A DNA stretch of 64,000 bases. It comes from Rheinheimera sp. D18. Its GTDB lineage: Bacteria > Pseudomonadota > Gammaproteobacteria > Enterobacterales > Alteromonadaceae. The first letter of the stretch is position 1. The number at the start of each line of letters is the position of its first letter. The stretch is from NCBI RefSeq assembly GCF_004345025.1, contig NZ_CP037745.1, positions 2,046,001 through 2,110,000 on the forward strand. The letters are read 5' to 3'. The notes below the pieces were generated by a model, which searched no databases, had not been told where the DNA came from, and worked only from the letters and a program-made list of their open reading frames with translations. Position numbers and translations under genes: made by a program. Of the stretch, positions 15,523 through 37,818 are shown one piece after another.

Positions 15523-16578
15523 TTAACAAACATCCTTTACCAGCAACCTATCTGGTTTTTTTTGTGAATAAGCAATGCCCCCTTCAGGATCGGCGTAACC
15601 CACAGCCAACAACATAACTACCCGCTGATGATATTCCAAACCAAGTATTTTACTTAACTGTTGCTCGCGCAGTTCTATATCAGGCCAGTTAATTGGGCAA
15701 CTGGCTAGTCCCAGGGTTTCGAGCGCCAGCATAAACTGCATAGCAGCAAGAGACGCATCAATATAAATAACGTGCCGGTCGCGTTCTGCCGGGTAAGCTG
15801 ATAAATCTGCAACTATTGCTATTACACAAGGAAAATTCTCGGCAAAACCAATAGTCCCCATAGCGCAATTTGCCATCGCTATGGCTTTTTCACCATGGGC
15901 GACCATAAACTGGTATGGCTGGCGGTTACAGGCGGAAGGTGCCAACGACGCAGCCTGAGCCGCAAGTTTAATATTATTGGCATCTACAGCTTTAGGTAAA
16001 AACCAACGCACCGACCGCCTGCGCTGTAATAACGTCATCAGTTGGTTGTAAGAGCAATCTGACCTGATTAGTTCTGCATAACAATATGGCACTGCATTAG
16101 TGCGATCTGGCTTAAGTACCTGCTGAAATTGCTTTTTAGCCGCCGTAATAGTTGGATGCTCTGCTACTACGGCGAAATATTCATCCAACACGTCAGTGGC
16201 CCATTGAAATTCATCGCGGCAAAACTGTGGACTGGCGGCTACTTTTATAAAACAATCTATCGTTTCACCGAGATAGTCCAACGCAAACACTGGCCGGCGC
16301 GGACGCATAATCAGGCCCTTTTCCAGCCGGTGGATATTTCGGCGTAACAATGCCGAGCTGAATTTTATGTCGCTGAGTGTGCGCTGGTAAGCTAAACGGC
16401 CCTGCAGTACCGCCTTGTGCTCGCGATAAAACTGCCGACTAAAAAAAGTGTAGTAAATAGAAGCTAAAAAGCCGTTAAAGGCGAACAGCCGTAAAAAAAC
16501 CAGTTCAAGCTGATTGAGCTGGGATTTAATACCAATTCGCCATGAATGCGGGATCAGACGCTTTAACTTATTTAGCAA
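15523..16578 (-). CDS. Nitroreductase family protein with N-terminal extension
   Basis: A predicted FMN-dependent oxidoreductase. The nitroreductase domain covers about residues 185-345, with RRRSVRWFLPKAVD (FMN phosphate contact), SLAPSACNRQPYQF and the C-terminal LLAVGYADPEGG. The first 180 residues, including FLRLFAFNGFLASIYYTFFSRQFY and HRLEKGLIMRPRRPVFAL, are not part of the standard fold and may bind the membrane or a partner. The start is TTG at 16578, six bases after AAGGGG. It is coupled to a pyruvyl transferase, suggesting a role in polysaccharide modification rather than detoxification. The substrate is unknown. Confidence 0.8.
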   Translation of the reverse strand: MLNKLKRLIPHSWRIGIKSQLNQLELVFLRLFAFNGFLASIYYTFFSRQFYREHKAVLQGRLAYQRTLSDIKFSSALLRRNIHRLEKGLIMRPRRPVFALDYLGETIDCFIKVAASPQFCRDEFQWATDVLDEYFAVVAEHPTITAAKKQFQQVLKPDRTNAVPYCYAELIRSDCSYNQLMTLLQRRRSVRWFLPKAVDANNIKLAAQAASLAPSACNRQPYQFMVAHGEKAIAMANCAMGTIGFAENFPCVIAIVADLSAYPAERDRHVIYIDASLAAMQFMLALETLGLASCPINWPDIELREQQLSKILGLEYHQRVVMLLAVGYADPEGGIAYSQKKPDRLLVKDVC

Positions 16579-18470: not shown

Positions 18471-18500
18471 AAAAAAAAACGCCCCTTAGGGCGTTTTTAT
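18471..18500 (-). terminator. Terminator after the S-layer-like gene
   Basis: A hairpin ACGCCC/GGGCGT with loop CTTA is followed on the minus strand by a run of about nine T residues. It lies 18 bases after the stop codon of the secreted-protein gene. Confidence 0.85.
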
Positions 18501-18518: not shown

Positions 18519-20339
18519 TTACAGACGAACTAAACCAACGTTAGAGTCTGTAGCAATTTCTTTGCGGCCATTAGAATTGTTAATTACTAAGTTACGGTCT
18601 TGATTTACGTTGTAACCAGAGTAAATTTCAATTTCAGACGTATCGCCAGAAACAATGAAATCAAATGCGAAGGTTTGTGAACTTGCACCATCCCACACAC
18701 CGCGTGCAATAAGCGCATCACGTACGTGCTCAGTTAAGCGAGTAACACCTGGCTGAATATCAACATTCATGTTAAGAACATGCGCGTCTTTAAACTTATC
18801 GGCTGCTGCACGGTTATGGTTTTGCGTGTAAACATCAACAGCGATTTGACGTGCCGCTGGGCCAGTATTAGTAACAAACAATAACTGGCTAATACCGTTA
18901 CCGTATGGCATGTAAGGTACAAACACGGTAGTACCGTCATTTGTCCAAGTACCAATATTACGGTTTAAGGTTTTGCTAGCACTGCCAGCTGTACCGCTGT
19001 ATGACATAACTGCTGATAAGTTAAAGTCTTGACGCGCTAAAACACCTGTAGGCGTCCAAGCGCCTGGCACTGCTAAACCAAAGTCAAAATCAGTACCAAC
19101 ACCACAGTTGAACTTCAGCGCTGCAGGTTGAGCGGCACCAACAGGGAATGTAGGTGCTACAATGTTACCATCTGCGACAACGTTTCCACCGGTTGTACCG
19201 TTTAGATTAAAACAGTTAGCACCCCATTGGCCACTAGCAGGAACATATGCACCAGCTACTGAAACAGAAGTTGCACCGGCTACTGTACCACCGTTAACAG
19301 GAGCAACAACACCAGCATTATTAGCTGTTAAGAAGTGGCCGTAGTTGCCCGCAACAGTAAATGCGGTTTTGATATCGGCATTTTTCAATGCAAAGTTCCA
19401 ACCAGTTGCGTTAGGAACAGTAGAGAATTCAAACTTGAAACGGTTACCTACTGAACCTACCAACACGTTAGCGGCTGTGGTCGCAGTAGTAACATCAGGA
19501 GCAGCAAAGGTTGCGCCGTAAGCTACTTCGTTAGTACGACCTTGACCGCTACCTGCAACGAAAGCTTGACGTGGCGCATTACCCGTTTTTGCAACGTTGT
19601 GATCAAATGTGTTAATACGCGCAGTTAGGTTACCGCTGTAGTTACCATCTAACTGATTACCAGTACGAATAAAGGCAACGTTAGTACGACGAGTACCAAC
19701 AGTATCAAAAACTCCACCGTTATTCTTGTATTCAGCGCGATATGAAATATCTACACCCTGAGCCGCTTTAACAGCTAAAGAGTTAAATTTGAAGGCAGAT
19801 GTTGTCCAGTTACTAATAGCATTGCCTGCTGCTGGCATATCTGGTGTAACACCAAAAAACAGCTGTGCATTCTGAGTATTTGCACCTTCAGATACGTTAG
19901 TTACACGATATTCAACAACAGTGTTGCCATCTACTACTGTAGAGCCGATACGACCGATAGTAATAACACCGCGAACTGGGTCAGCTACTGATGGAGCAGT
20001 TGGAATAATATAGCCTGTGCGTGACAATGGCAAAGAAGCCACGTCAATAGATGTTCCTGAAAACGTAACAAAAATACGGTCATCTACTGAGTACTGATCT
20101 TCTACAACAATACGAAAATGTGTGCCTGTTGGTATAAGAGCAGCTTCAGTTGGTGAAGATACAGATAAATTAGTATTAACTTCTAACCACTCGTTAGCTG
20201 CTGTTAACACTTCATAACCAGTAGGCGCACCATTCTGATCTAAAAAACCACCTAATACATCAATACGTGCTGCATTTGCAGTTGAGCATACACCGGCCAG
20301 TGCTGCTGCAACTAAAGTAACTTTAAACATGTTTTTCAT
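18519..20339 (-). CDS. Secreted surface protein, S-layer-like (Slr4-type candidate)
   Basis: A 606-residue exported protein: signal peptide MKNMFKVTLVAAALAGVCSTANA, cut before ARIDV. The mature part is rich in Thr, Asn, Gly, Ala and Val, poor in Cys (a pair around 378 and 412) and Met, and looks all-beta. It contains no enzyme motif I recognise. This composition, the strong promoter, the long leader and the neighbouring dedicated type II secretion operon suggest an abundant surface-array protein. Slr4, the S-layer protein of Pseudoalteromonas tunicata, is the closest idea I have; I could not align it. GGAGAG lies five bases before the ATG. Alternatives are a matrix protein or a secreted adhesin. 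Confidence 0.6.
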   Translation of the reverse strand: MKNMFKVTLVAAALAGVCSTANAARIDVLGGFLDQNGAPTGYEVLTAANEWLEVNTNLSVSSPTEAALIPTGTHFRIVVEDQYSVDDRIFVTFSGTSIDVASLPLSRTGYIIPTAPSVADPVRGVITIGRIGSTVVDGNTVVEYRVTNVSEGANTQNAQLFFGVTPDMPAAGNAISNWTTSAFKFNSLAVKAAQGVDISYRAEYKNNGGVFDTVGTRRTNVAFIRTGNQLDGNYSGNLTARINTFDHNVAKTGNAPRQAFVAGSGQGRTNEVAYGATFAAPDVTTATTAANVLVGSVGNRFKFEFSTVPNATGWNFALKNADIKTAFTVAGNYGHFLTANNAGVVAPVNGGTVAGATSVSVAGAYVPASGQWGANCFNLNGTTGGNVVADGNIVAPTFPVGAAQPAALKFNCGVGTDFDFGLAVPGAWTPTGVLARQDFNLSAVMSYSGTAGSASKTLNRNIGTWTNDGTTVFVPYMPYGNGISQLLFVTNTGPAARQIAVDVYTQNHNRAAADKFKDAHVLNMNVDIQPGVTRLTEHVRDALIARGVWDGASSQTFAFDFIVSGDTSEIEIYSGYNVNQDRNLVINNSNGRKEIATDSNVGLVRL

Positions 20340-20435
20340 GCTTTCTCTCCGATTTCTAGAAATAGAGTTTTAGGCATCTTGCCCTGGCTCTTGTTTTTTT
20401 AACATTAAATTCGACTGCTATTGCAGCACCAATGA

Positions 20436-20463
20436 ATTCTACCTGCGCGTGGTAGCATGTCAA
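20436..20463 (-). promoter_or_regulatory. Strong predicted sigma-70 promoter of the S-layer-like gene
   Basis: A consensus TTGACA (20458-20463), a 16-base spacer and TAGAAT (20436-20441) on the minus strand give a leader of about 90 bases before the ATG at 20339. The 20340-20555 gap contains no gene. This promoter lets the protein gene be expressed independently of, and above, the upstream secretion operon. Confidence 0.7.
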
Positions 20464-20555
20464 TAATTAGTTTTATAAAGCTCATTATTTTTAATGATTT
20501 TTATCAAAAAATTATAGACATGTTAGGCACATGCATTCGAATCTAAGTACGCTAT

Positions 20556-22646
20556 TTATTCAGAAATATTTAAATTTGTCAAGCCTTCTGCAATTCGTGC
20601 ACGCAGTTCAGGCCATTGGTCAACAGAATCAATTACTGTTGGTGTAATAAAGATAATAAGCTCAGTTTTTTCTGATTTTCGTCCAGTACCTTTAAATAAA
20701 TTACCGATTAAAGGAAGCGCAGATAACAGCGGAACATGGGTATTGGAGCTACTACCATTATCGGAAATTAACCCACCTAACAATATGGTTTGTCCACTTT
20801 GTGCCAATACTTCAGTTTTTATTGAGCGTTCAAAAATAGAAGGTGAACCTTGCAAACTTGGTCCTGTTTCCGTGGTATTAGAAATACTTTGATCTATTTG
20901 CAGCACCACTAAACCTTGCGAATTAACCGTTGGCGTTACGGCTAAATTAATACCTGTTTTACGATAATTAATTACTGTAGTTTGCCGATTACTTTGTTGC
21001 GGATCGCTAATGGTCGCACCTATTGTGGGTATATCATTACCAACACTGATATTTGCCGCTACCCCGTCGCGCACGACTAATGTTGGGTTAGACAAGACAT
21101 TAATTAACGTAGTACTGGCAGAAAGACCCGCCAATACCTGTTTTAAACCCGACTGCCAATTTAAACTTAACCCGCCAACATTGGCTGCACCTAACGCGCC
21201 TAGCGTACCACCACTAAACTTCCCTTCACGAAAAGCAAACTCAAAACCTTGAGCGAATTCGTCGGTTAAGGTTACTTCTGCAATGGTAGCATCTAGCAAA
21301 ATTTGTTTGGGCATTACGTCTAAGCTGCGAATAATTGGCAACAAAGACTGGTAAAGCTGGCCGGAGGTAAAGAAAATTATGCTATTTGATCTATCATCAA
21401 CGGTCATTTTAACATCTTCACCGTTAACACTTATTGCGCCGCCTGCCGATTTTGCTTTATTATTTTGCTGGCTGCTTGATGGTTGCGACCCAGCAGCAAG
21501 CCTAGGCATTGCCGATTGGGTATCACGGCTACGGTCAACATTAGTATTACCGCTACCAAAATCACCTAAAAGCGGGCCTACTGATTCACCTAAATCTGAG
21601 GCTCGGGCATAACGCGGGTGGTAAATAAAATAACGCGCAGCACTACTTTGGCTTGGCTTATCTATCATCGCGGCCCAATATTCCATGCGCTGCATAATGG
21701 CGGCATCACCTGAAAATGCGGCTACTGCACTTATTTGACTAACAGGCACAAACAATAACGCACTGCTGTCAGAACTGTTTAAGTTTTTGCCAGCCATAAT
21801 ACCTTCGGCTTTTAGCAAATCGCTTACGGCCGTAACAAATTCGTCTGGGCTAATATAGCTAAGATGATACATGCTAACGTACTTTCCTCTGTTAGCTGGG
21901 GTATCTAATAAATTAACTAAATCGATAATACGCAATATTTCACTGCGGTTACCCTCAACAAATAAGGCATTTTGCTCTGTGTCAGATGATATTTTGGCAT
22001 CTGACAAGCTACGTATAGTGCGTTCTATGCTGTTAGTAACACCAAAACGTAAAGGAATAATTTGTAATATTGGCTGTGCACTTTCTGGTACATCAATTGC
22101 ACGTCGGCCTTGGCCAATAATAGCTTGGTTACGTATGCCGGTTTGCTTGGTGTTTATATAAAAGATATCTTCACTGCGACTAAGTGTTAAGTCATTTTGC
22201 TGTAACAGCTCTGATACCAGCATAACTAATCGGCGAGAGCTCACCGGTTCAGAAATATTTAACGTAATTTTAGCGCTACTGGCACGAGCACTATCAGAAA
22301 TAATATAATTTACACCAAGTTGTTCAGCAAAAACTAGCTGTACAAATTGACCGATGTTCATTTGGTTGGCCGCTAATTGTAACTGGTCTTTGGTTGATAA
22401 CCCCAACAACATTCCACTTTGATCTGAAATTTTGTTACTGTCGTTACGTAAGGTTTTGATAGGCTGCATGCCTAAAGGCATCACTTTATCGTCGTCAATA
22501 ACAATATCAGTATCAATCGCCTGCTCTTGTTTATGAGCAACGGCAAACCGGTTAAGTGGTACATCCAATTTGGTTTGCCTAGTATGGGAGCAACCTGCTA
22601 ACACGCTAGTTACTGCAATTATCAGCAAGGTTTTACGAAATAACAT
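20556..22646 (-). CDS. gspD: Type II secretion secretin, lipoprotein type (GspD-like)
   Basis: Forms the outer-membrane channel of the secretion system. The 696-residue protein has a lipobox LAGC (residues 16-19) followed by Ser. N-domains include MNIGQFVQLVFAEQLGVNYIISD near residue 93 and ILRIIDLVNLLDTP near 235. The C-terminal secretin domain has VLSNPTLVVRDGVAANISVG near 525 and LGGLISDNGSSSNTHVPLLS near 635. Ordinary GspD proteins have a cleaved signal peptide and use a pilotin; lipoprotein secretins such as HxcQ insert by themselves. It is the last gene of the operon, 13 bases after gspC. Confidence 0.9.
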   Translation of the reverse strand: MLFRKTLLIIAVTSVLAGCSHTRQTKLDVPLNRFAVAHKQEQAIDTDIVIDDDKVMPLGMQPIKTLRNDSNKISDQSGMLLGLSTKDQLQLAANQMNIGQFVQLVFAEQLGVNYIISDSARASSAKITLNISEPVSSRRLVMLVSELLQQNDLTLSRSEDIFYINTKQTGIRNQAIIGQGRRAIDVPESAQPILQIIPLRFGVTNSIERTIRSLSDAKISSDTEQNALFVEGNRSEILRIIDLVNLLDTPANRGKYVSMYHLSYISPDEFVTAVSDLLKAEGIMAGKNLNSSDSSALLFVPVSQISAVAAFSGDAAIMQRMEYWAAMIDKPSQSSAARYFIYHPRYARASDLGESVGPLLGDFGSGNTNVDRSRDTQSAMPRLAAGSQPSSSQQNNKAKSAGGAISVNGEDVKMTVDDRSNSIIFFTSGQLYQSLLPIIRSLDVMPKQILLDATIAEVTLTDEFAQGFEFAFREGKFSGGTLGALGAANVGGLSLNWQSGLKQVLAGLSASTTLINVLSNPTLVVRDGVAANISVGNDIPTIGATISDPQQSNRQTTVINYRKTGINLAVTPTVNSQGLVVLQIDQSISNTTETGPSLQGSPSIFERSIKTEVLAQSGQTILLGGLISDNGSSSNTHVPLLSALPLIGNLFKGTGRKSEKTELIIFITPTVIDSVDQWPELRARIAEGLTNLNISE

Positions 22647-22659
22647 TAGCTCACTCCAC

Positions 22660-23328
22660 TCATTGTTGTTTTTTCATTAGTTCAAGCAGAGCTTTTAAGT
22701 CTTCTGCATCTTGCTCATTGGCACTGTCTAATACAGACAGTAATTTGTCTGCCGGCGTGTCACCTGGTTTACCCGGGCCTGCAGCCTCTGGTTTCGCGTT
22801 GTCGGCCGCAGTAAACAGCGGCAAAAGCCGGCTGTCGTCACTATCAACGCTAAGGGCTACACGTTCCGTTTGTATCTCGGTAATTAAAAACTGCCCTAGA
22901 CTGGCGCCTGGTTGCAGCAAATGTGCTACTACTTTACCAGCGCTGTCGCCCGCTAATAATTGCTGTTCGATTAATGCCAGCCTGGTATTTTCACCAGCAT
23001 GTTGCCGGATAAATACCGCACGTAAACGTAAACGGCTATCGCCAAATACTTCACTGCCCGGCAGCGCAACAATTGGCTTGGTTGTATCGGCCAGTGCGGC
23101 TGAGTCTGCTGTTTTTTTATCTGCAGGATGAATAAAAGCCTGCAGACGCCCTGCTGGTACTGGCGTAGCTAAACTGCTCTGCCATTGCTGCAGATCTGTT
23201 GCGATTAAAGCCTGATTGCTTTGCCGCATCGGGGCATAAAGACGACTGCTGAAATCAATATAAAAAATCAGTGTAAGTAACAGCAGTAAGGCTATTACAT
23301 AAGGTTGGCGAAAAGAGCTTAAGCTCAT
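22660..23328 (-). CDS. gspC: GspC-like inner-membrane component
   Basis: GspC links the inner-membrane platform to the secretin and takes part in substrate choice. The 222-residue protein has one N-terminal membrane helix (about 11-30), a proline- and lysine-containing linker, and a beta-rich HR-type domain at about 92-165 (LRLRAVFIRQHAGENTRLAL, then LLQPGASLGQFLITEI). The C-terminus is an acidic helix instead of a PDZ domain. Its position between gspM and gspD is unusual, since gspC normally leads the operon. The assignment rests on topology, the HR-like stretch and context. Confidence 0.65.
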   Translation of the reverse strand: MSLSSFRQPYVIALLLLLTLIFYIDFSSRLYAPMRQSNQALIATDLQQWQSSLATPVPAGRLQAFIHPADKKTADSAALADTTKPIVALPGSEVFGDSRLRLRAVFIRQHAGENTRLALIEQQLLAGDSAGKVVAHLLQPGASLGQFLITEIQTERVALSVDSDDSRLLPLFTAADNAKPEAAGPGKPGDTPADKLLSVLDSANEQDAEDLKALLELMKKQQ

Positions 23329-23900
23329 TTTGGTTCCTCCGCATTATGCTTAACAGCGGCTATTTGTAGCATAACTACCATGCGGCCGTGGCCCGTTGCA
23401 GAGCGTTGATCAGGGTACAGGGTGTTTTCAAGTAACTGCACGCCGACTAATTGCTCATGCGCGGCCTGCAAAGCATTTAGCATGCCCGGCAGTGCGCCTT
23501 CCAGCGTTAGCCTGGCGCGATAACTGCGCAAATACCCCCCAGCCTCATCCTGCACCGTAAGCCACTCAAATACCGTTAAATTGGCTGCATATTTACGGAT
23601 ATGTTGTTCTAGTTGCTGTTGTGCCTGCAGACGAAATTCTGCGTCATTACGATAAACTAAGAAACGCTGTTCAGTACTCTGGCGCAGCGCTACCAGCTGT
23701 TGCAAACTATCGCTTGCTGCCGGTGGTAAGTTCACTACGCGCTTGGCTTTAATGAGCTGTTGCGACGTTAACGCCAGCATATCATGGCTTTGTTGCTGTT
23801 GCTGATACCATGGCTGCAATATAAATTTAGCGTAAAGTAAAAAAGCCACTACAAGTAGCAAGGTGGTGCGCTGCGCTGCGCTGGTCTGAGCTACTGTCAT
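23325..23900 (-). CDS. gspM: GspM-like inner-membrane platform protein
   Basis: A 191-residue protein with one N-terminal membrane helix (about residues 12-29, TLLLVVAFLLYAKFILQPWY), a coiled-coil region (QQQQQSHDMLALTSQQLIKAKR) and a ferredoxin-like periplasmic domain ending with VQLLENTLYPDQRS. GspM pairs with GspL to hold the assembly ATPase. It overlaps gspL and gspC by four bases each, so translation is coupled. Sequence similarity in this family is low; the call depends on topology and place. Confidence 0.75.
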   Translation of the reverse strand: MTVAQTSAAQRTTLLLVVAFLLYAKFILQPWYQQQQQSHDMLALTSQQLIKAKRVVNLPPAASDSLQQLVALRQSTEQRFLVYRNDAEFRLQAQQQLEQHIRKYAANLTVFEWLTVQDEAGGYLRSYRARLTLEGALPGMLNALQAAHEQLVGVQLLENTLYPDQRSATGHGRMVVMLQIAAVKHNAEEPK

Positions 23901-25063
23901 TTTGTATCTCCGGGCTGTGGCAGCGCTGCCGGCACTGCACCAGCAGAAGGATAAGGCACAGCGGTGTCTATCGTTAAACGCAAACTAAAGAACTCGCCGT
24001 TGCGCCCACGTCGCATGGGGGCGGTGAATTCAATATTGCTCACAGCAGAGTGTGCCGACAGCAGGCTGACCAACTCGGTTGTACTCTCTGTTTCACCGGT
24101 CACTGACATAACATCGAGCTCTGACTTAACATTGGCAAGGACAACCCCCTGATTAATAAGTAAGGCCAACAGGTCCCAGTGCTGCAGGGTCAGATTCCAG
24201 TTTCCTTTTGCCTCTACCAGGGCGGCGAGTTTGCGCTGTTCTTCGTCCATTGCACTTTGAATAGCCAATTTATCAGCAACATCTGAGCTTAACCGCTCCA
24301 GTTGCGATTGACGGCTGCTGTTTAATGCATACAGATAACCTGAGCCTATAACGCCATACAGCGTAACTGCTACTGCGGCGGTAACTAATAACTGCCGGAT
24401 ATTAAACGCCGGTTTGCTATTGCTGCGGCTTTGCCAGTTAACTAATACATTAACGGGTAAGGCAAACAAACTATCGAGTTGTCGCTGTAAAAATGCGTCC
24501 CGCTGCCAGCTTTGTAGCTCAGTTGCCGGGCTTATACCAAGGGCAGAACGAATGGCCGATTCGCTTTGCAACAGCCCTTGAGGAAAAAACGATCGCACCA
24601 AACCGTCGCGGTCAATATGTATTACCAGCTCGGTGTCGGCGCTAGTGACTTTATGACAAGACCCTGCAGTCTGGCTGGCTGCAAATAACCAGGTTTCTGG
24701 TATCAAAATAATACTGTCGGTGGCGACTTCTAATACGGCCGGCAACCAACTGATAATTTGTACCCTTTGTTGGTTGTTGTCAAAACTGCCAATTTTATAC
24801 AGCACATTTTTACCAAATTCAGACAGAATAATCTTCTTTAAATCACTTTTGTCTGATACCGGGTAGGTTTTGATCAACTCTTTATAGCTGTTTCTTGCAA
24901 CTACAACTATTGGCCTGGCTTTCTTACCGGCAAACCAGTTGCGCCCGGCCTGGCCGTTAATCGTTGCCAGGGGCGTGCATTGATTACCGTCATAATAAAA
25001 CGCACTGCGTATCAGAATTGACCGGCTTAGCTTTTCACTTATTTTATTGAACTGGCTTAACAT
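23897..25063 (-). CDS. gspL: GspL-like inner-membrane platform protein
   Basis: GspL recruits the GspE ATPase to the membrane. The 388-residue protein has a cytoplasmic N-terminal domain of about 220 residues of actin-like type, a membrane helix at about 229-248 (LLVTAAVAVTLYGVIGSGYLYAL), a short coiled coil (SQLERLSSDVADKL) and a periplasmic domain resembling PilN. The C-terminal tail is Pro/Ala rich. It starts 22 bases after gspK and overlaps gspM. The family is poorly conserved at sequence level, so order and topology support the call. Confidence 0.75.
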   Translation of the reverse strand: MLSQFNKISEKLSRSILIRSAFYYDGNQCTPLATINGQAGRNWFAGKKARPIVVVARNSYKELIKTYPVSDKSDLKKIILSEFGKNVLYKIGSFDNNQQRVQIISWLPAVLEVATDSIILIPETWLFAASQTAGSCHKVTSADTELVIHIDRDGLVRSFFPQGLLQSESAIRSALGISPATELQSWQRDAFLQRQLDSLFALPVNVLVNWQSRSNSKPAFNIRQLLVTAAVAVTLYGVIGSGYLYALNSSRQSQLERLSSDVADKLAIQSAMDEEQRKLAALVEAKGNWNLTLQHWDLLALLINQGVVLANVKSELDVMSVTGETESTTELVSLLSAHSAVSNIEFTAPMRRGRNGEFFSLRLTIDTAVPYPSAGAVPAALPQPGDTK

Positions 25064-25085
25064 GCTGCTACCAGGTTACCTTTTA

Positions 25086-25943
25086 TCATTGATGATCTGT
25101 TATTGACAAAAACTGCAGTGGCTGCAGGCCGTAGGGGCGTAGCTCTATATCTACCTGTCTGATCTGGCGAGCAGCTGACGTATCAGCGCAACATTGCAGC
25201 TCCAGCCGCAAATAAGGCCCGGGTGTCATTAGGGTAAAGTCATCGGGTACCAGATCGGCTAAGCTAAAAAATTGTTCAGCAGACAAAACCGCATTATTGC
25301 GGCTGACACGAATCATATCAGCTTTTGGTGCAGAAAAAAGTAAATCAAGCATTGCTGACGGGATATATGCCGGACTGTTGCCGGCAAATGGCACTAAGGT
25401 AACAAATGGCGCTACTCTGCGCTGCCAGTAACGGTCCCAATGCGGCAAGTTGGCTAACTCAGTTAAATGTTGCACTGGCAAAACAACAGCATTATGGCTA
25501 AGTCTGTCACGCTGTAAAAACGGATTTTGCCGCAGTTTAATTTGCTGCACCATGGCTTCAGCTTCATGTTGTGGCTTACCGTGGTACTGCAGCAACTGTT
25601 GCAAACCGGCGAAGTCTGCTTGCAGGTTTATCAAGCTTGGTAAGTTAAACAGTCTTACGTCGCTATTTTGCCATACAAAGGGGCTACCGTAAAAATTCCA
25701 CTGACTCAGCAAAGTGTTATCATTGTTTGTCTGATTGACCAGTGGCTCAGTTAACAAGTTAAAGATCAGCTCATTGGTTTGGCTATACAACATATTTTTA
25801 TGTTGCAATTGCTGCTGTAGCGCCAGTACTTGTTTTTGCTGCATTTGAGTATGGCCAACGGCGATCATCAGCAAAGCCGCCAAAATGCCGGTAATAAGTA
25901 GCACCTGTACTAAGGCAATACCAAGATGTGCTCTGGTTAGCAT
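25086..25943 (-). CDS. gspK: GspK-like minor pseudopilin
   Basis: GspK caps the pseudopilus tip with GspI and GspJ. The 285-residue protein begins with a prepilin-type segment, HLGIALVQVLLITGILAALLM, with Gly before the predicted cleavage and no Glu at +5, as is usual for GspK. A large globular domain follows, with LQQLLQYHGKPQHEAEAMVQQI near residue 112 and a C-terminal NAVLSAEQFFSLADLV region. It sits three bases after gspJ. The size and lack of Glu5 distinguish it from the other four pseudopilins here. Confidence 0.8.
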   Translation of the reverse strand: MLTRAHLGIALVQVLLITGILAALLMIAVGHTQMQQKQVLALQQQLQHKNMLYSQTNELIFNLLTEPLVNQTNNDNTLLSQWNFYGSPFVWQNSDVRLFNLPSLINLQADFAGLQQLLQYHGKPQHEAEAMVQQIKLRQNPFLQRDRLSHNAVVLPVQHLTELANLPHWDRYWQRRVAPFVTLVPFAGNSPAYIPSAMLDLLFSAPKADMIRVSRNNAVLSAEQFFSLADLVPDDFTLMTPGPYLRLELQCCADTSAARQIRQVDIELRPYGLQPLQFLSITDHQ

Positions 25944-25946
25944 CGG

Positions 25947-26624
25947 TTAATACTCCGGGTCAGCACGTGTTTTAAGTAAGTTGTCAGACACATCATGCAC
26001 CATCACCGGCCATGAAAACTGCTCTACATTAATTTGCACCACTAAAGGGTGTTGCCGACGCTTAATACCATCGTATTCGGTAAACCAGGCTCTGGGTTCA
26101 AACTGAACCGAAGAAAGCGGATCGCTGCCGATTTCTCGGTCTGTCAGGCTGGGCCAGCCAAAATACTCGAAATTGATACTTTGCTTGCCTTGAAACAGAA
26201 CAAGTCTGTACGAAAAGGGTAATTGTTGGCCAGCTTCAGCTAATAATGTCTCTGCAATCACGGCTTCCTCATACACCAACTGGCTGGAGCCGTCAGGCAG
26301 GCTTTCTTTGAACAACCGATATACAGCAGGTGAGCCTGGTGCTTGCACAGAGGTATGACTTACAGCTGTAAAACCATCTTCTTTACCCAAAAAATAAAAG
26401 GCATATTGTTGTCCGGAAATAACCATGTGCGGAAAGGTTTTAGTCAATACCCGGTTGGTAAGCTGCCAGGCGGCGTAGTCGGTCATCGCGGTTTGAAAAC
26501 GGATTCGCGTTTTTTGCCAGTTATCCTGAAAATACTGAAACACCATAGCGCCACTTATCACCAACATGCTCAATAATATCAGAGTGATTAACACCTCTAT
26601 CAGGGTAAAGCCGCGCTGTTTCAA
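25947..26624 (-). CDS. gspJ: GspJ-like minor pseudopilin
   Basis: The 225-residue protein starts with the short leader KQRG and the type III signal GFTLIEVLITLILLSMLV with Glu at +5. The body contains VYRLFKESLPDGSSQLVYEE and the C-terminal WPVMVHDVSDNLLK. The start is a TTG at 26624, six bases after AAGGA, and overlaps the gspI stop (TTGA). GspJ joins GspI and GspK in the tip complex. Processing needs a prepilin peptidase that is not encoded in this window. Confidence 0.8.
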   Translation of the reverse strand: MKQRGFTLIEVLITLILLSMLVISGAMVFQYFQDNWQKTRIRFQTAMTDYAAWQLTNRVLTKTFPHMVISGQQYAFYFLGKEDGFTAVSHTSVQAPGSPAVYRLFKESLPDGSSQLVYEEAVIAETLLAEAGQQLPFSYRLVLFQGKQSINFEYFGWPSLTDREIGSDPLSSVQFEPRAWFTEYDGIKRRQHPLVVQINVEQFSWPVMVHDVSDNLLKTRADPEY

Positions 26625-27076
26625 AGTACTTCCTTCAGCTCTGGGACATAGGCAAACTCCAGATACTCAAATTGCTCTTGCGCGCTCAGATAACTGACTG
26701 TTACTTTGACACTGTACAACATGTAACGATCCTGATAACGCAGAAACTGGCTGGCTTCAGGGTCAAAACGAGGCACGGGAGGAGCTTTTCGCGACACTTC
26801 AGCAGTCCAGTTAAAGCTTACTTCGAGTAAATTATTTGAACCCGATAACGCCGCGCTCGGAGTCTCCTGCTGTGCATCGAGAATAGCTTTTTGTATATGG
26901 CTCTTAATCGGCTCAATTCGCGCCAGCAACAGCAGTTTATCGGTCGCTTTTTTAGTACCTTGCATAGCGACCTGAAAGGACAGTAATGCACTGGTTACTG
27001 AGGCAAATAATATTACCGCAGCGACAAGCACTTCGATAAGGGTAAAACCTTTATTCCGAGTCAATTCAGAATTCAT
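26621..27076 (-). CDS. gspI: GspI-like minor pseudopilin
   Basis: A 151-residue minor pseudopilin: the leader MNSELTRNKG is followed by FTLIEVLVAAVILFASVTSA with Glu at +5. The start at 27076 gives a normal short leader; the open frame continues upstream but that part overlaps gspH deeply and is unlikely. It overlaps gspH by eleven bases and gspJ by four. The C-terminal half (VSRKAPPVPRFDPEASQFLRY, SYLSAQEQFEYLEF) is a small globular domain as expected. Confidence 0.8.
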   Translation of the reverse strand: MNSELTRNKGFTLIEVLVAAVILFASVTSALLSFQVAMQGTKKATDKLLLLARIEPIKSHIQKAILDAQQETPSAALSGSNNLLEVSFNWTAEVSRKAPPVPRFDPEASQFLRYQDRYMLYSVKVTVSYLSAQEQFEYLEFAYVPELKEVL

Positions 27077-27524
27077 AGTGAATTCCGACTGTTGGCAATT
27101 GATACTCCCGCTGGCGGCTAGGCGCAGAAGCCGGAGCCCAGACAATCTGCGCAACAGACCAAAAGCCGTTAGCGTTTACCGAAAACTCCTGTTTGGCAAA
27201 ATGCAATGTTTCAAATTCATGCTGACGCGGCACCGGGCTTGTATCTGGCTCGGCTCTGGCGGTTAGCCAATATGCAGGCTGTGGTTTAATGGTCAGTACA
27301 TTGCCGTTAAGTTCTATCTCAAATGCAGTCTGATTGTTAAGTGCGTTGAAACGTGCCTGATCTAACAGCGAAAAAACCTGTTCAATTTCTTTTAACTGAC
27401 GGCTGCTGTCCAGTTGCTTGAATGTAATGCCGCCAACCAGGGTAAGGCTCAACCCCATTATTACCATTACAATCATCAGCTCTATCAGTGTAAAACCGCG
27501 GCGGCTGCTATTAGAGATCAACAT
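27066..27524 (-). CDS. gspH: GspH-like minor pseudopilin
   Basis: A 152-residue protein with leader MLISNSSRRG and the segment FTLIELMIVMVIMGLSLTLVGG with Glu at +5. The body includes QLKEIEQVFSLLDQARFNALN, where GspH/FimT proteins carry a similar helix, and a beta-rich C-terminal half. Fourteen bases overlap the end of gspF. The order H-I-J-K matches other type II systems and places it here as the first minor pseudopilin. Confidence 0.8.
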   Translation of the reverse strand: MLISNSSRRGFTLIELMIVMVIMGLSLTLVGGITFKQLDSSRQLKEIEQVFSLLDQARFNALNNQTAFEIELNGNVLTIKPQPAYWLTARAEPDTSPVPRQHEFETLHFAKQEFSVNANGFWSVAQIVWAPASAPSRQREYQLPTVGIHYEF

Positions 27525-28704
27525 TAGTTACCGCAGATATACTCAGCATCATTACCACCACTACAGTGCCGACTATTATCCCCATTACCATTATCAGTAG
27601 CGGCTCAAGCAAATTAAGCAGCCTGCTGACCCATGCATAAAACTGCGTTCTGGAACGATCGGCAATTTCATTAAATACCTGCTCAAGTTCAGCGCTTTCC
27701 TCACCTATGGTTAACAAGGATGCAAAGAACGGCGGAAACAGTGACGTCTCGCCGAGACTACTGGCTAACCCATTGCCACGCCTGATATTGTCTAAAGCGG
27801 CGTTGGTTTCAAATTTAAAGCGTTGGGTTCGCAAGGTTGCGCTGGCCAACTGCAGCACCTTATCTATGGCTAATCCAGCAGACAACATTGTTGCTATAGC
27901 TGAACTAAACCTTATACGCTCGACCATCAGATTAGCCGAACGGACAATAGGCAATCGCTCTTTTGCCCATTGTGTTACCTGCACTATCCGCTGATGATCT
28001 CTATATGAATGCGCCATAGCGCTGAGCAGCACAACAACAACACCAAGGTGAATTTGGTAGCTGACGAAAAAATCACTCACATCTAACAGTAACGACGTAT
28101 ACCAAGGCAAATTTCCCGCGTCCCGGAACAACTGGGACATATTAGGTACAACAAAGTTGAAAATAAATAGCAGCGCCAGAATACAGACAAACAAGATTAC
28201 TGATGGGTACACCAAGGCTTGCTTAATTTTTGCTGACAGTTCAAGTTGATATTTCATTTCCTGCGATAGTTTAGCAAAGGTGTCAGCCAGTTGACCTGTT
28301 TCTTCGGCAATTTTGACCAAACCAATATATAAAGAATCAAATGCAGGATTTGCAGCTAAAGCATCTGACAGCGCATGGCCTTGTTTAATTTCCTGCAGAA
28401 TATTATCCAGCAGATTAGCTAACGCCTGATTTTCAACATTTTGCTGCAAAATTGTCAGTCCGCGGTCGAGGCGTAAACCAGACTTAAGCAACAACGCCAG
28501 CTCTGTAGTAAAAAACTCTATATCTTTTACTGTTAGCGTACTATTTCTAAACGCTAGTTTGTGCTCAAAATGCTGTTTTATTTCAATAATTAGCAAGCCA
28601 TTTGCTTTGAGCTGCTGCTCAGCTTCTTGCTTTGACGCAGCAAACAGGGCAGCTTGTTGTTTCACACCACTTTTGGTGTAAGCAGTATAGGTAAACTTGG
28701 CCAT
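27511..28704 (-). CDS. gspF: GspF-like inner-membrane platform protein
   Basis: A polytopic inner-membrane protein around which the pseudopilus is assembled. The 397 residues comprise two repeated T2SSF domains (about 65-190 and 265-390). The first has FFTELALLLKSGLRLDRGLTIL and the second has IATMLSAGLAIDKVLQLA. Three membrane helices lie near 165-187, 208-228 and 362-385. The ATG overlaps the gspE stop (TAATG). Length and architecture are normal for the family. Confidence 0.9.
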   Translation of the reverse strand: MAKFTYTAYTKSGVKQQAALFAASKQEAEQQLKANGLLIIEIKQHFEHKLAFRNSTLTVKDIEFFTTELALLLKSGLRLDRGLTILQQNVENQALANLLDNILQEIKQGHALSDALAANPAFDSLYIGLVKIAEETGQLADTFAKLSQEMKYQLELSAKIKQALVYPSVILFVCILALLFIFNFVVPNMSQLFRDAGNLPWYTSLLLDVSDFFVSYQIHLGVVVVLLSAMAHSYRDHQRIVQVTQWAKERLPIVRSANLMVERIRFSSAIATMLSAGLAIDKVLQLASATLRTQRFKFETNAALDNIRRGNGLASSLGETSLFPPFFASLLTIGEESAELEQVFNEIADRSRTQFYAWVSRLLNLLEPLLIMVMGIIVGTVVVVMMLSISAVTNVDL

Positions 28705-30356
28705 TACCCTGCCACCCTTAATACTTCATCCAGTGTCGTAATACCTTTTAGCACTTTAAGAATGCCGTCTTCCAACAGTGTTCTGAAGCCATTTTCTGCA
28801 TTATGTTGTTGAGCTTTATGAATAAATCCAGGCTCCGATATGTGCGCTTTTATGTGGTCGTCGCAACGCAAATATTCAACAATGGCTATACGGCCAGAAT
28901 AACCGGTATTTGCACAGTGCTCGCAACCAACAGCATGTTTAATAGTGATGTCCCGCCCCAGAGTGGCGGTGAGTTTTTTCATATTAAATTGGGTAAACAC
29001 TGCTTCTTTAAACGGTTCAGGCTCAGCACAATGCTGGCAAAGCTGCCTGACAAGGCGTTGTGCTACCACACTTTTAACCGCAGCAGCCAACAGAAAAGGT
29101 TCAACACCTAAATCAACTAGTCGCGTGTATGCACTGGCGGCATCATTGGTATGCAAGGTGCTAAAAACCAGGTGACCGGTTAACGAAGACTGCAAAGCGA
29201 TAGACGCGGTTTCAAGATCACGGATTTCCCCTATCATGATGATATCCGGGTCCTGTCGTACGACGCTTCTGAGTGCTTTTGCAAACGTATAACCGATATC
29301 ACTTTGTACCTGAACCTGATTTACACCGGTTAACTGGTATTCTACGGGATCTTCAATGGTAATTATTTTAATGCCCGGCTCGTTCCTACGGGTAAGAAAA
29401 GAATACAGGCTGGTAGTTTTACCAGATCCCGTTGGGCCAGTGAGTAAAACAACTCCAGACGTTGAGTTGATGTCCTGCATAAGGCACTTTTCGACGTCCG
29501 GTTCTATACCCAGCCTGGAAACATCGTATTCGAGTGATCCTTGCAATAAAAAGCGTAAAACCAGGCTTTCCCCAGTAGCAAGCGGAAGTGCTGACACGCG
29601 GATATCGAGTGACTTACCATCGACACGCATTTCAATTTTGCCATCCTGTGGCCTGCGTTTTTCTGCAATATCCATTCTGGACAATAGTTTTAAGCGGGTA
29701 ACAACCGGCAACAGCATGGCTGGTGTCAAAATATCTGCATCTTGTAATACTCCATCTATGCGATACCTGACACGGCCTTTGTTTGCATAAGGCTCAATAT
29801 GCATATCAGACGCTTTTCTGCGCAAACCTTTAGCTATAAGGCTATTCAGTAAATTTACAGTTGGTGCTTCTGACGCCATTTCCTTAAGGCGCTCTTCTTC
29901 TAAACTGGTCAAACCGGCATCAGAAGGTTGCGTTTGCAGGTTCACCTGTGACGCACGTAAAGCATCAAACTGAATTTCGCTGCACAACGCTAAATGCACT
30001 TTGTGTGGCAAGGAGGCTATAAACTCGTTGACATCAATATTGGATGGGTCACGTAAAATCAAGTAGAGGGTGTCATCTGCGTAGCGGTAAGCAATAATGT
30101 CTAATGCCAGTGCTTCAGCAATTAGCTGCTCAGACAACACCTCTGACATGTCAGTCGTTGTGATTTCATCTTCAATTAAAGGTATACCGAACAAGCGCGC
30201 GTAAAGTCCGGGCAAGAGTTCTGATGACAAACTGCCCAAACGAACCAGAATTTGCTCAAGTTTGCCACCATATTTTTCCTGATACGACAGTGCTTTGTTC
30301 AGGTCCTGCGAGCTGATACCGAAATCTTCAGATAACAGGCTTTCTAGTGTTTTCAT
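28704..30356 (-). CDS. gspE: Type II secretion assembly ATPase (GspE-like)
   Basis: A hexameric ATPase that drives pseudopilus assembly at the cytoplasmic face. The 550-residue protein has an N-terminal GspE domain (about 1-140) and a central domain with MHIEPY and RYRIDGVL. The Walker A GPTGSGKTTSLYS lies near residue 310, the Asp box IEDPVEYQL follows, then the Walker B region MIGEIRDLETASIAL and the His box HLVFSTLHTNDA. A zinc-binding tetracysteine element (CQHC and CEHC) lies near 462-495. It follows gspG by 39 bases. Confidence 0.95.
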   Translation of the reverse strand: MKTLESLLSEDFGISSQDLNKALSYQEKYGGKLEQILVRLGSLSSELLPGLYARLFGIPLIEDEITTTDMSEVLSEQLIAEALALDIIAYRYADDTLYLILRDPSNIDVNEFIASLPHKVHLALCSEIQFDALRASQVNLQTQPSDAGLTSLEEERLKEMASEAPTVNLLNSLIAKGLRRKASDMHIEPYANKGRVRYRIDGVLQDADILTPAMLLPVVTRLKLLSRMDIAEKRRPQDGKIEMRVDGKSLDIRVSALPLATGESLVLRFLLQGSLEYDVSRLGIEPDVEKCLMQDINSTSGVVLLTGPTGSGKTTSLYSFLTRRNEPGIKIITIEDPVEYQLTGVNQVQVQSDIGYTFAKALRSVVRQDPDIIMIGEIRDLETASIALQSSLTGHLVFSTLHTNDAASAYTRLVDLGVEPFLLAAAVKSVVAQRLVRQLCQHCAEPEPFKEAVFTQFNMKKLTATLGRDITIKHAVGCEHCANTGYSGRIAIVEYLRCDDHIKAHISEPGFIHKAQQHNAENGFRTLLEDGILKVLKGITTLDEVLRVAG

Positions 30357-30395
30357 GTTAATTTTTATGCTCTGCTCAGGCGGCTTAAATAACCA

Positions 30396-30785
30396 TTAAT
30401 TAGTAATTACATCTTCGGCATTAGCTTGTCCTGAAGGACCATAAGACATAATCGTAAAGGGACTGTTGTTCAGTCCTGGCGTTTGATACACATAGGGATT
30501 TCCCCATGGATCAAGGGGTACATCTTTAGGTAAGTAGGGACCATCCCAACGTGGATGCTCACTTTTCCTTAACTCGTCAAGACTAACCGGAAAACGCCCT
30601 GTGTCTATGCGAAAGGTGTTCACCGCAGTTTGCAGCATGCTAATTTGAGTTTCCGCAGTTTGCACTCTGGAACTGTCTACTCTTGAAAACATTTGTGGCG
30701 CAACAATTGACGCCAATAACCCCAAAATGACAATTACAATAAGCAATTCTATTAATGTAAAACCCGCTCTCTTTTGCTTTACCAT
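30396..30785 (-). CDS. gspG: Major pseudopilin GspG
   Basis: The main subunit of the type II secretion pseudopilus. The 129-residue protein has the leader VKQKRAG, the FTLIELLIVIVILGLLASIV segment with Glu at +5, and the C-terminal DGPYLPKDVPLDPWGNPYVY that is a hallmark of GspG (calcium site region). The ATG at 30785 lies seven bases after GAGG; a TTG two codons earlier is less likely. It is the first gene of the operon instead of following gspF, and lies opposite a divergent glycosyltransferase gene across about 180 bases. Confidence 0.93.
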   Translation of the reverse strand: MVKQKRAGFTLIELLIVIVILGLLASIVAPQMFSRVDSSRVQTAETQISMLQTAVNTFRIDTGRFPVSLDELRKSEHPRWDGPYLPKDVPLDPWGNPYVYQTPGLNNSPFTIMSYGPSGQANAEDVITN

Positions 30786-32752: not shown

Positions 32753-34672
32753 TCAGACAACACGTTTGATCTTGCTACTGCTGTTATCGGTATGATGGGT
32801 CAGCGCAACCAGATCACAATTGCCGTCAGAGGGCATAAATGCAACTTGCTCATTTAGTAATAGCTGGCGAATAGCCTCAACGTCGTAGTTATTACAGGCT
32901 GTTTTTAACATGCCCAATAACTGCTGCATTGCACTCCAGCTTAATGCCGTTTCGTTTGCTTTCATAATCCGCGGGTGATCAGTTTCTTGCTCGTTACCAC
33001 TAATTAAAAGTTCTTCATACAGTTTTTCGCCTGGCCTTAGGCCAGTAAATTGAATTTCAATATCACCGCTGGCGTGCACATCATCTTTTACTTCTAACCC
33101 CATCAAATGCACCATTCTTCGCGCCAAATCAGCTATTTTAACCGGCTCGCCCATATCTAACACAAACACATCACCGCCCTGTCCCATAGCACCGGCCTGA
33201 ATAACCAACTGTGCGGCTTCGGGTATGGTCATAAAATAGCGAATAATATCTTTATGGGTTACGGTGATAGGGCCGCCACGGCGAATTTGCTCGCGAAATA
33301 ACGGCACCACAGAGCCACTTGAACCCAGCACATTACCAAACCTAACCATACAAAACCGCGTGCTACTTTGACGCTGTGATAGGGCCTGAAGCACTAGCTC
33401 AGCCATGCGTTTAGTTGCACCCATAACGTTGGTTGGCCGTACGGCTTTATCAGTAGAAATTAAGACAAAGGTTTCAACACCAGAGTTAATTGCTGCCTCA
33501 GCAGCGCAGTTTGTACCGAAAATATTATTTAGCACACCTTCAGTAACATTAAATTCAACTAAGGGTACATGTTTATACGCCGCAGCGTGATAAACAGTTT
33601 GTACGCCAAATGCGCGCATGACATTTTCTAATAAACTCTGCCGTCTCACCGATCCCATAATAGGAACCAACTTAATATCTAATTGTTGCAACTTGATTAA
33701 CGCAGCAAGCTCCTGTTCAATGCTGTATAACGCAAACTCTGAACATTCAAATAGTACTAGTACTTTGGGTTCATATTTAATAATTTGCCGGCATAACTCT
33801 GAACCAATAGAACCGCCAGCGCCAGTAACCATGACCGCCTTATTAGCAATGTTAGCTAACATTAGTTTATTTTTCGGTGCCACCGAGTCACGGCCTAGCA
33901 AATCTTCTATTTTTACGTCTTGTAATTCATCAATACGCATTGAGCCATCGATTAAATCACTCATTCCAGGTATTGATTGTACTGGAATTGGCAGCTCTTC
34001 TAGCGCATCCAATACTTCTCGGCGTCTTGCTCGACTTGCCGATGGCACTGCCAGCAAAATTCGGTTGATATTGTGGGTTTTTATTAAGTTAGATATTTGG
34101 GTTTGTGCACCAACCGGCATGCCTAATATAGTAGAACGATGCAATGTCGTGTCATCATCAACAAAGACTACCGGGTGATACTGTTCACCATTCATTAATG
34201 CTTGTGCTAGTTGCCTACCCGATGAACCTGCTCCATAAATTAAAACTCGTTCTTTATAGCCATTATTGCGTTGTACCAGAAACATGCGTGCCAATAAACG
34301 TAAACCGCCAGATGACACTAGCGCTAAAATAGCATAAACAAAAATAAGGTTGCCTTTATCGTGGATCTGAAATAAACCAAACAATAATGCAAGAATAAAT
34401 GTACTACTGACTATCCCCGCTAGCACTGCACCTAGTGCATGTTGGCCGATATAGCGAATAACTGCTCTATACAAACCTAATTTAGTGAAAATAAACAACG
34501 TTATTGGCAATGTAATAGCAAAAGCTAGTGCAATTTGCGGTACGTGGTTTAAATTAGTTTGCTGAGTTAAAAAATAACCTGCTACTAATGAGCAAACTAG
34601 TAAAACTATATCGGCACAAACTGAAATTAGCCGCTTAACCGAACGCGGCAAGGCTAGTAACCAAGCTAGCAT
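32753..34672 (-). CDS. UDP-N-acetylglucosamine C6-dehydratase, WbpM/CapD family
   Basis: A 639-residue membrane-bound enzyme that makes UDP-4-keto-6-deoxy-GlcNAc, the precursor of FucNAc, QuiNAc or bacillosamine-type sugars. Four N-terminal membrane helices (about 10-110) are followed by a first Rossmann-like domain (YGAGSSGRQLAQAL near 146) and the catalytic dehydratase domain (VTGAGGSIGSELC near 293). LISTDKAVRPTNVMGATKRM carries the family Met in place of the SDR Tyr, plus Lys. It is the last gene of the minus-strand O-antigen series, a common position for wbpM. Confidence 0.9.
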   Translation of the reverse strand: MLAWLLALPRSVKRLISVCADIVLLVCSLVAGYFLTQQTNLNHVPQIALAFAITLPITLFIFTKLGLYRAVIRYIGQHALGAVLAGIVSSTFILALLFGLFQIHDKGNLIFVYAILALVSSGGLRLLARMFLVQRNNGYKERVLIYGAGSSGRQLAQALMNGEQYHPVVFVDDDTTLHRSTILGMPVGAQTQISNLIKTHNINRILLAVPSASRARRREVLDALEELPIPVQSIPGMSDLIDGSMRIDELQDVKIEDLLGRDSVAPKNKLMLANIANKAVMVTGAGGSIGSELCRQIIKYEPKVLVLFECSEFALYSIEQELAALIKLQQLDIKLVPIMGSVRRQSLLENVMRAFGVQTVYHAAAYKHVPLVEFNVTEGVLNNIFGTNCAAEAAINSGVETFVLISTDKAVRPTNVMGATKRMAELVLQALSQRQSSTRFCMVRFGNVLGSSGSVVPLFREQIRRGGPITVTHKDIIRYFMTIPEAAQLVIQAGAMGQGGDVFVLDMGEPVKIADLARRMVHLMGLEVKDDVHASGDIEIQFTGLRPGEKLYEELLISGNEQETDHPRIMKANETALSWSAMQQLLGMLKTACNNYDVEAIRQLLLNEQVAFMPSDGNCDLVALTHHTDNSSSKIKRVV

Positions 34673-37655: not shown

Positions 37656-37818
37656 TAATCCCTCTAAACCTCCCAATCCCTCCAGACCTCCTAATCCCTC
37701 CAAACCTCCCTTTATAAAGGGAGGCTTTATTTTCCCCCCTCTTTCGTAAAGAGGGGGTTAGGGGGAGATTCGGGAGGCTTTACCCCCCTCTTTCGTAAAG
37801 AGGGGGCAGGGGGAGATT
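37656..37818. repeat. Right repeat block: three 18-base tandem units, one full and one partial palindromic unit
   Basis: Three 18-base tandem units start at 37656, 37674 and 37692 (TAATCCCTCTAAACCTCC and variants). The third runs into a full copy of the palindromic repeat (37692-37770), nearly identical to 37203-37279. A shorter third copy follows at 37772-37818, lacking four bases of the T-run. The last copy encodes the C-terminus and stop of the metallo-hydrolase gene. The period is not spacer-interrupted, so this is not a CRISPR. Confidence 0.85.

Follow-up and report, generated by a model that had tools for sequence, protein, structure and literature searches.

An Slr4-family surface-layer gene beside a type II secretion operon in Rheinheimera sp. 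D18, and its relatives among other secretion-linked loci

In a 64,000-nucleotide stretch of the Rheinheimera sp. D18 genome (contig NZ_CP037745.1, positions 2,046,001 to 2,110,000; hereafter, the window), an operon of eleven genes for a type II secretion system (T2SS) is followed by slr4, a gene for a 606-residue protein of the Slr4 surface-layer (S-layer) family. The product of slr4 is in all likelihood the subunit of a crystalline surface layer, exported by the adjacent T2SS and held on the cell by the glycan of the same locus. In the mechanism that we propose, a promoter of its own probably drives strong transcription of slr4, and the protein would reach the periplasm via Sec; the adjacent T2SS alone would then push it over the outer membrane through a self-piloting lipoprotein secretin, with a prepilin peptidase borrowed from the genome's single copy encoded elsewhere, and Slr4 would finally crystallise on the cell under the hold of that glycan.

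The window locus is a real Slr4 locus of the published type, and the pairing of Slr4 with a T2SS is already known. Slr4 of Pseudoalteromonas tunicata forms a p4 lattice, which is lost in a deletion mutant (Ali et al. 2020, PMC7821379); the same paper of 2020 describes an adjoining, putatively dedicated T2SS, and the idea is repeated for Slr4 in AnnoView (PMC11094555). As far as the available text of PMC7821379 goes, the P. tunicata locus is like that of the window in the Pfam family, in a T2SS operon immediately upstream and in a Sec signal, and both come from marine or aquatic gammaproteobacteria. The window locus differs in that it lies in a cluster of the capsule/O-antigen type and has a pyruvyl transferase that travels with it; the available text mentions pyruvyl in a reference title and nowhere else. 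Similarly, the gene for the S-layer protein NpdA of Paracidovorax citrulli and its relatives adjoins a gsp cluster in a genome with a second one (available text of PMC10765051); NpdA is, however, described there as a family of its own, in tables without an Alteromonadales genus, and is likened to Slr4 here by neighbourhood and not by sequence. The same source is the one paper in the library searched that names both Slr4 and VapA, and it again compares neighbourhoods and not sequences. The window itself thus adds to the known Slr4 loci, and the greater interest lies in the comparison: new here are the tracking of Slr4 with its secretin, sister groups of exported proteins, an apparent homology with an Aeromonas-type system, the cassette behaviour of the locus and its link to a pyruvyl transferase.

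The Slr4 protein and its secretion operon

A first-pass annotation of the window had described eleven minus-strand secretion genes followed by a single exported protein of 606 residues, and both the order of the open reading frames (ORFs) and the family models bear this description out; the transcription order is G-E-F-H-I-J-K-L-M-C-D and then slr4 (Table 1). The annotation had also suggested a comparison of the protein with Slr4, which identifies it as a family member: residues 87–582 match positions 1–370 of the 370-position profile PF19526 with 79.1 bits (cut-off 25). This match is the sole one to Pfam at E-values up to 0.1, with no SLH domain in the same scan, and slr4 is the single PF19526 match in the whole genome. 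The best-conserved positions of the family (G463, W465, P475, Y476, P478, N491, and R582) are all present. By eye, furthermore, the protein starts with a Sec-type signal (a basic N-terminus, a hydrophobic core, and A-N-A at 21–23), and entropy is lowest over the first 23 residues in an alignment of 73 Slr4 sequences. Searches of PDB by sequence and by profile gave nothing credible for Slr4-type proteins, and a search of plasmids with the window protein gave no match. As to the fold prediction that had been advised, the beta-rich part of the expectation held, and an S-layer protein was missing from the best 50 of 771 Foldseek matches. The predicted structure is mostly strand, with a mean predicted local distance difference test (pLDDT) score of 71.1 and block means of 81–96 for residues 441–500 and 521–590; the best 50 Foldseek matches are Ig-like, adhesin and similar beta proteins, with template-modelling scores to the query of at most 0.22.

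The slr4 gene probably gives a separate and abundant transcript, because it has its own promoter-like site, a terminator and a low effective codon number (39.5, the second lowest among the 48 genes of the window, with a mean of 50.5). The leader would be about 90–100 nucleotides long from the promoter-like site, and the transcript probably ends at the intrinsic terminator. The region holds four promoter-like sites as compared with 4.7 in shuffled sequences, and hence the scan alone is no proof; terminator sites were four versus 2.2.

In the secretion operon, T2SS identity is firm by family model for D, E, F and G; TIGR02517, TIGR02533 and TIGR02120 also match, all under their equivalog cut-offs. 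H, I and J are recognised via the prepilin N-methyl motif alone, and the GspC-like protein had no family match in the library scans. For GspI, the internal ATG at 27076 is a likelier start than the listed TTG at 27154. The lipobox Cys of secretin D is invariant in all twelve aligned sequences, and the strict lipobox pattern is present in 69 of 79 D proteins from the named loci defined below; among the other ten, nine have a GC or NC site by eye and the tenth is cut. Secretin D thus appears to be a self-piloting liposecretin.

The source genome (one contig, 3.31 Mb) also contains a second gsp operon, a canonical one at 3.077–3.088 Mb that comprises C to M and probably N. Its products C to G and J to L exceed the NCBIfam cut-offs and M stays below; H and I were assigned by position and weak similarity, and the last gene, which encodes 247 residues without a family match, is probably N. 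The secretin domain has three matches in the genome, namely D of the window, D of the canonical operon and a third, PilQ-like one, which fits PilQ in its context with a PilN/GspL-like ORF nearby. The pilus secretin and the pilus ATPase are separate from the window operon, and the only prepilin peptidase of the genome lies outside it at 549 kb, near a pilB-like gene at 551 kb. The first-pass annotation had named the case of a single T2SS in the genome as fatal to its proposal of a dedicated system; because a canonical operon exists elsewhere, this case does not apply, and the second full operon that it had asked for was found.

Co-occurrence of Slr4 with its secretin

In a sample of 295 genomes from the order, 14 had Slr4, and in all 13 relatives that were fetched T2SS genes accompany it on the stretch retrieved; one locus (L030) is interrupted by a contig end, and another (L037) has a different gene order, its slr4 being on the opposite strand. 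A larger sample of 395 genomes from the family was searched with PF19526 and with a secretin profile built from 12 Slr4-linked secretins. Slr4 was matched in 85 genomes (83 over the cut-off). Secretin scores fell into tiers: 78 genomes at 743–999 bits, 19 at 488–602 and 18 at 338–405, with two-piece matches in G558, G328, G031 and G560 (best piece, 195–286 bits) and at most 143 bits for the remainder of the matches listed. Slr4 passed its cut-off in 76 of the 78 genomes with a top-tier secretin versus 7 of the 317 others; Slr4 and the top-tier secretin therefore co-occur almost strictly.

The best 80 of the 91 relatives found with the secretin were taken as named loci. There is room downstream of D in 76 of them, and a gene for Slr4 stands there in 72, above chance; in 56 of the 76, the gene order is exactly that of the window. 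The four without slr4 after D are L074, L089 (the sequence of which starts inside D), L116 and L117 (with slr4 on the opposite strand). Separately, three to five tandem Slr4 ORFs follow one T2SS in Pseudidiomarina (L042, L044, L047, and L049) and Ferrimonas (L078), one of the five in L049 being a 96-residue piece. The slr4 frame appears broken in Rheinheimera texasensis (L031/L054; 217 + 294 residues) and Alkalimonas amylolytica (L041; 93 + 316 residues), by either assembly error or real loss.

Several results weigh against a surface-layer subunit with an exporter of its own. No S-layer protein was among the best Foldseek matches, as noted above; the low effective codon number of slr4 is partly due to an unusual amino-acid mix; and C, L, M and K of the operon are only weakly assigned, by sub-cut-off, weak or positional evidence. 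The genomes are related, and the association of Slr4 with the secretin is hence not made of independent events. Two genomes (G380 and G568) have a top-tier secretin and no Slr4 Pfam match, and seven pass the Slr4 cut-off without a top-tier secretin; of these, G325 and G358 score 573 and 557 bits with the secretin profile, G467 and G510 carry proteins of a sister group (fam2a, below), and G357, G430 and G618 show no secretin in assemblies of 80–620 contigs. With adhesin-like beta domains among the Foldseek matches listed, a length of 606 residues (the 84 Slr4 ORFs of more than 400 residues in the named loci span 417–635, and two exceed 600) and stretches rare among relatives (e.g., 296–309, 361–379, and 392–405), the protein might instead be a secreted adhesin or a matrix component, still of the Slr4 family, in a lineage that has lost the crystalline layer. 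We consider this unlikely, given that the protein retains the positions best conserved in the family and that Slr4 of P. tunicata has been proven to form an S-layer (PMC7821379).

Sister lineages and an Aeromonas-type locus

Among the 37 loci with middle- and low-tier secretins, 20 were fetched and their exported proteins picked by hand from the flanks. These loci retain most of the T2SS operon and adjoin other exported proteins of 450–660 residues, by which further candidate S-layer proteins are indicated through their exporters. We grouped them into fam2a (12 loci; 571–653 residues, with invariant cysteines), fam2b (L179, L181, and the named locus L116), fam3a (L194 and L196) and fam3b (two in L195, and L197 and L198); no cargo gene was seen in L180, where 462 bases separate D from the end of the contig. 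Given the choice by hand, these loci may have other cargo too. The five sister proteins checked (three of fam2a and two of fam2b) had no Pfam family, which disagrees with the genome search, where the G510 and G467 loci of fam2a score 36–37 bits and thus over the Slr4 cut-off.

The sister groups were compared by hhalign with the 73-sequence Slr4 alignment, which holds no sister proteins and excludes L039 (see below), and also with a smaller set of 12 sequences. The larger set gave 96.1% with fam2a over 118 C-terminal columns, 92.6% with fam2b over 112, 97.2% with fam3b over 402 and 56% with the two sequences of fam3a over 51; the smaller set gave 95.6, 77.3, 96.9 (129 columns) and 10.9%, respectively, and reversed controls reached at most 1.0%. 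In a sequence-by-sequence profile search, in which composition corrections were large, an E-value of 0.01 was reached for 18 of 21 sister proteins with the 73-sequence profile and for 8 with the 12-sequence profile. At the level of sequence, a C-terminal domain of about 115 residues with the motif G-x-x-VPY...TN is common to Slr4, fam2a, fam2b and fam3b; for fam3a, the relation is unproven by hhalign. This domain is a candidate module for secretion and/or anchoring. In 11 of the 12 fam2a loci (L182 and L184–L193), a DsbA-like thioredoxin gene (235–275 residues) adjoins the cargo gene, an assignment checked in Pfam for three of the eleven, and several products have a lipobox by eye; because of this gene and the invariant cysteines, fam2a proteins are likely to undergo disulfide folding before export.

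Another system, L039 (genome G230), is present in one of 37 genomes of its genus and has a guanine-plus-cytosine (GC) content of 0.58. We compared it by gene order and lengths with the published sps/vapA cluster (PMC4413209, Table 2). Lengths in residues are equal for RmlD (295), RmlC (186), E (551), F (399), G (144), H (123) and M (198); they are less close for RmlB (394 in L039 and 361 in the published cluster), J (215 and 201), D (783 and 743) and the S-layer protein (465 and 469). The Wzm-like gene has 264 as compared with 272 for the intact one, and K and L of L039 have no confident match to the published cluster. From cluster order and lengths, the genus would be Aeromonas. The S-layer protein of L039 passes the Slr4 Pfam cut-off with 53.7 bits; Slr4 profiles made without it gave 97.5% over 409 columns by hhalign (reversed control, 0.1%), 94.9% with the smaller set and 83.5 bits by hmmsearch, and fam3b is closer than Slr4 (99.2%). 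Searches of PDB and of plasmids found no relative of this protein.

The A-layer and Slr4 systems consequently look homologous, as judged from the L039 protein and not from the VapA sequence, and the Aeromonas parallel drawn in the first-pass annotation is closer than it had claimed, with apparent homology beyond analogy. In A. hydrophila AH-1, as described in the available text of PMC4413209, T2SS genes ending in D are followed by vapA, all within an O-antigen cluster, which is like the window; the order is, however, E-F-G-H-... instead of G-E-F-H-..., the L039 ATPase belongs to another clade than that of the window, and the tether of the A-layer is lipopolysaccharide (LPS), whereas for the window the locus genes suggest a candidate anchor. 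A shared ancestry of cargo and exporter is suggested for the A-layer of a fish pathogen and the marine Slr4 layer, and with it the LPS tether and the requirement for SpsD become predictions for the other system.

An IQ-TREE phylogeny of the secretion ATPases (47 rows: the window, 22 of the 80 named loci, 16 of fam2a, fam2b and L180, five of fam3, L039, and the own GspE and PilB) had the last two as outgroups, two long branches for which the program issued a warning and which leave the deep root unsure. Slr4 loci form one clade (support, 96/96), as do fam2a (97/89), fam3a and fam3b (100/100), and L039 is sister to fam3b (98/94); fam2b is not monophyletic, since the unlabelled L180 falls inside. 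The ATPase of the window groups with those of Alkalimonas, Alishewanella and Pseudidiomarina and not with that of Rheinheimera aquimaris. Cargo class follows ATPase clade with 8 changes, the minimum possible, versus a mean of 21.9 in shuffles. The secretion ATPases of these systems share ancestry, and the own canonical GspE is parted from all of them (100/99); together with the genome search, this sets the window operon apart from the canonical gsp operon as a separate lineage.

T2SSs commonly export many proteins, and the adjacent system might be a general one shared by enzymes and Slr4, or the canonical gsp operon might export Slr4. The chance of this seems slim to us: a canonical operon is present elsewhere in the genome, slr4 and the adjacent operon are neighbours in 72 of the 76 named loci with room downstream of D, they were for the most part lost together in G537 (see below), and the cargo class follows the ATPase clade.

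Control of the window ATPase by cyclic di-GMP (c-di-GMP) was considered and dropped. The c-di-GMP motif of MshEN consists of two RLGxx(LVI)(LVI)xxG... half-motifs (PMC5013675), and an MshEN-related model matches 14 of 16 aligned ATPases at E-values up to 0.01; the window ATPase, however, scores 31.9 bits with NF053729, under the cut-off of 38, and its motif is degenerate: by eye, each half lacks R and G of RLG, and the second lacks Q as well. The L039 ATPase (L039 5803–7458) keeps a better motif by eye.

Cassette behaviour in the genus

The gene for the CapD-type protein near the operon served as a landmark, and its ortholog occurs in all 31 genomes of the genus (split over two contigs in G598). 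The cassette of secretion genes and cargo is found in ten: six of the Slr4 type (the window, R. aquimaris, three Arsukibacterium, and Alishewanella longhuensis) and four of the fam2a type (G558, G613, G636, and G651). It lies 1–18 kb from CapD in eight of the ten, and at 79 kb in G613 and 106 kb in G558. Of the 21 cassette-free neighbourhoods, four were read, and they have the same polysaccharide cluster with an intact cassette absent. In G636, an additional CapD-like copy close to a contig start (G636:C1:5408-7285) is broken and contains stops. Split-looking ORFs at the joins between adjoining stretches (D in A. ikkense and in Alishewanella) are artefacts of the joining and were left out of the counts.

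G537, one of the four, retains G and a match to residues 1–460 of E. Its DNA aligns in the same order with that of A. indicum, in four long pieces (78.6–84.4% identity), on either side of a 15,027-base jump that takes in the pyruvyl transferase, the nitroreductase, slr4 and the remaining operon genes; the scar is at L207 6536–6548 against L211/L212. Because relic G and E genes remain, deletion is the likely direction of change. Between the window and R. aquimaris, in turn, the flanks are 74–89% identical for several proteins (CapD 89, the Wza-like exporter 88, UDP-sugar dehydrogenase 86, and YjbH 80%), as compared with 56% for E, 46% for F and 48% for D of the operon. Low identities are also seen in YjbF (60%), YjbG (52%), Wzz (45%) and glycosyltransferases (25–44%), and the whole polysaccharide locus is therefore mosaic. 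The cassette has likely been exchanged between lineages, with fast divergence as a possible alternative; in composition, the cassette (GC of 0.446) is like the remainder of the window (0.445) and shows no mark of transfer.

Polysaccharide locus and possible anchor

The flanks of the operon contain glycosyltransferase, Wzx-, Wzz- and Rml-type genes in addition to group-4-capsule GfcB/GfcC/YjbH and a Wza-like exporter. The cluster would be an O-antigen or a capsule locus; the mixed gene types and the distance of the genome's only Wzy_C (ligase/polymerase) match, about 187 kb outside the window, fit either reading, and the O-antigen anchor put forward in the first-pass annotation is one candidate. 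At least one polysaccharide protein of the window was matched in 67 of the 80 named loci, a count that covers the sequence available and has no background control. A pyruvyl transferase copy scoring at least 425 bits is present in all six Slr4 genomes of the genus and in none of the 25 others, which have just a paralog of 236–260 bits. Within the sequence covered, the transferase and/or the adjoining nitroreductase occur in 30 of the 80 named loci (both in 22) and neither in 50, and the pair is hence not universal.

It is tempting, if doubtful, to regard the T2SS-linked S-layers of gammaproteobacteria (VapA, Slr4, and at least three sister groups) as one ancient unit, in which a dedicated exporter and a conserved C-terminal cargo domain are kept while the exposed N-terminal part behaves like a serotype cassette, being replaced, swapped or lost near a surface-polysaccharide locus, and in which the anchor of the Slr4 branch might be a glycan pyruvylated by the co-travelling transferase. 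Such an anchor would be a Gram-negative counterpart of the pyruvylated polymers that SLH domains of Gram-positive S-layers bind (PMC12175726). The parallel is functional at most, because Slr4 has no SLH match; a limited literature search, over titles and the beginnings of abstracts, turned up no Gram-negative S-layer anchored by a pyruvylated polymer.

Table 1. Features of the Slr4 locus in the window (window coordinates)
Feature	Position	Strand	Evidence
Polysaccharide pyruvyl transferase	14383..15522	-	PF04230, 125.4 bits
Nitroreductase-family protein beside the pyruvyl transferase	15523..16578	-	PF00881, 93.1 bits
Intrinsic terminator 3' of slr4, 10-bp stem and T-run	18475..18498	-	Terminator scan
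slr4 (S-layer protein, Slr4 family, 606 residues)	18519..20339	-	PF19526, 79.1 bits
Putative sigma-70-like promoter of slr4, TTGACA-16-TAGAAT	20436..20463	-	11/12 consensus positions
D, GspD-like secretin, lipobox LAGC	20556..22646	-	PF00263, 148.7 bits
C, GspC-like, named by position	22660..23328	-	Positional counterpart in relatives
M, GspM-like	23325..23900	-	NF040576, 23.3 bits (cut-off of 60 not reached)
L, GspL-like	23897..25063	-	PilN, 15.1 bits (cut-off 22.8); position
K, GspK-like minor pseudopilin	25086..25943	-	NF037980, 25.3 bits (cut-off of 130 not reached)
J, GspJ-like minor pseudopilin	25947..26624	-	N_methyl, 31.3 bits
I, GspI-like minor pseudopilin	about 26621..27076	-	N_methyl, 27.4 bits
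H, GspH-like minor pseudopilin	27066..27524	-	N_methyl, 35.7 bits
F, GspF inner-membrane platform protein	27511..28704	-	T2SSF (PF00482), 167 bits
E, GspE secretion ATPase, degenerate MshEN-like N-terminus	28704..30356	-	T2SSE (PF00437), 415 bits
G, GspG major pseudopilin	30396..30785	-	TIGR01710, 118.8 bits (cut-off 88.85)
CapD-type polysaccharide biosynthesis protein, locus landmark	32753..34672	-	PF02719, 427.7 bits

Inside the polysaccharide locus, furthermore, a plus-strand tRNA-Thr(CGT) gene (37762–37837) overlaps a minus-strand beta-CASP RNase-like gene (37780–39240) at the 3' end of the latter.

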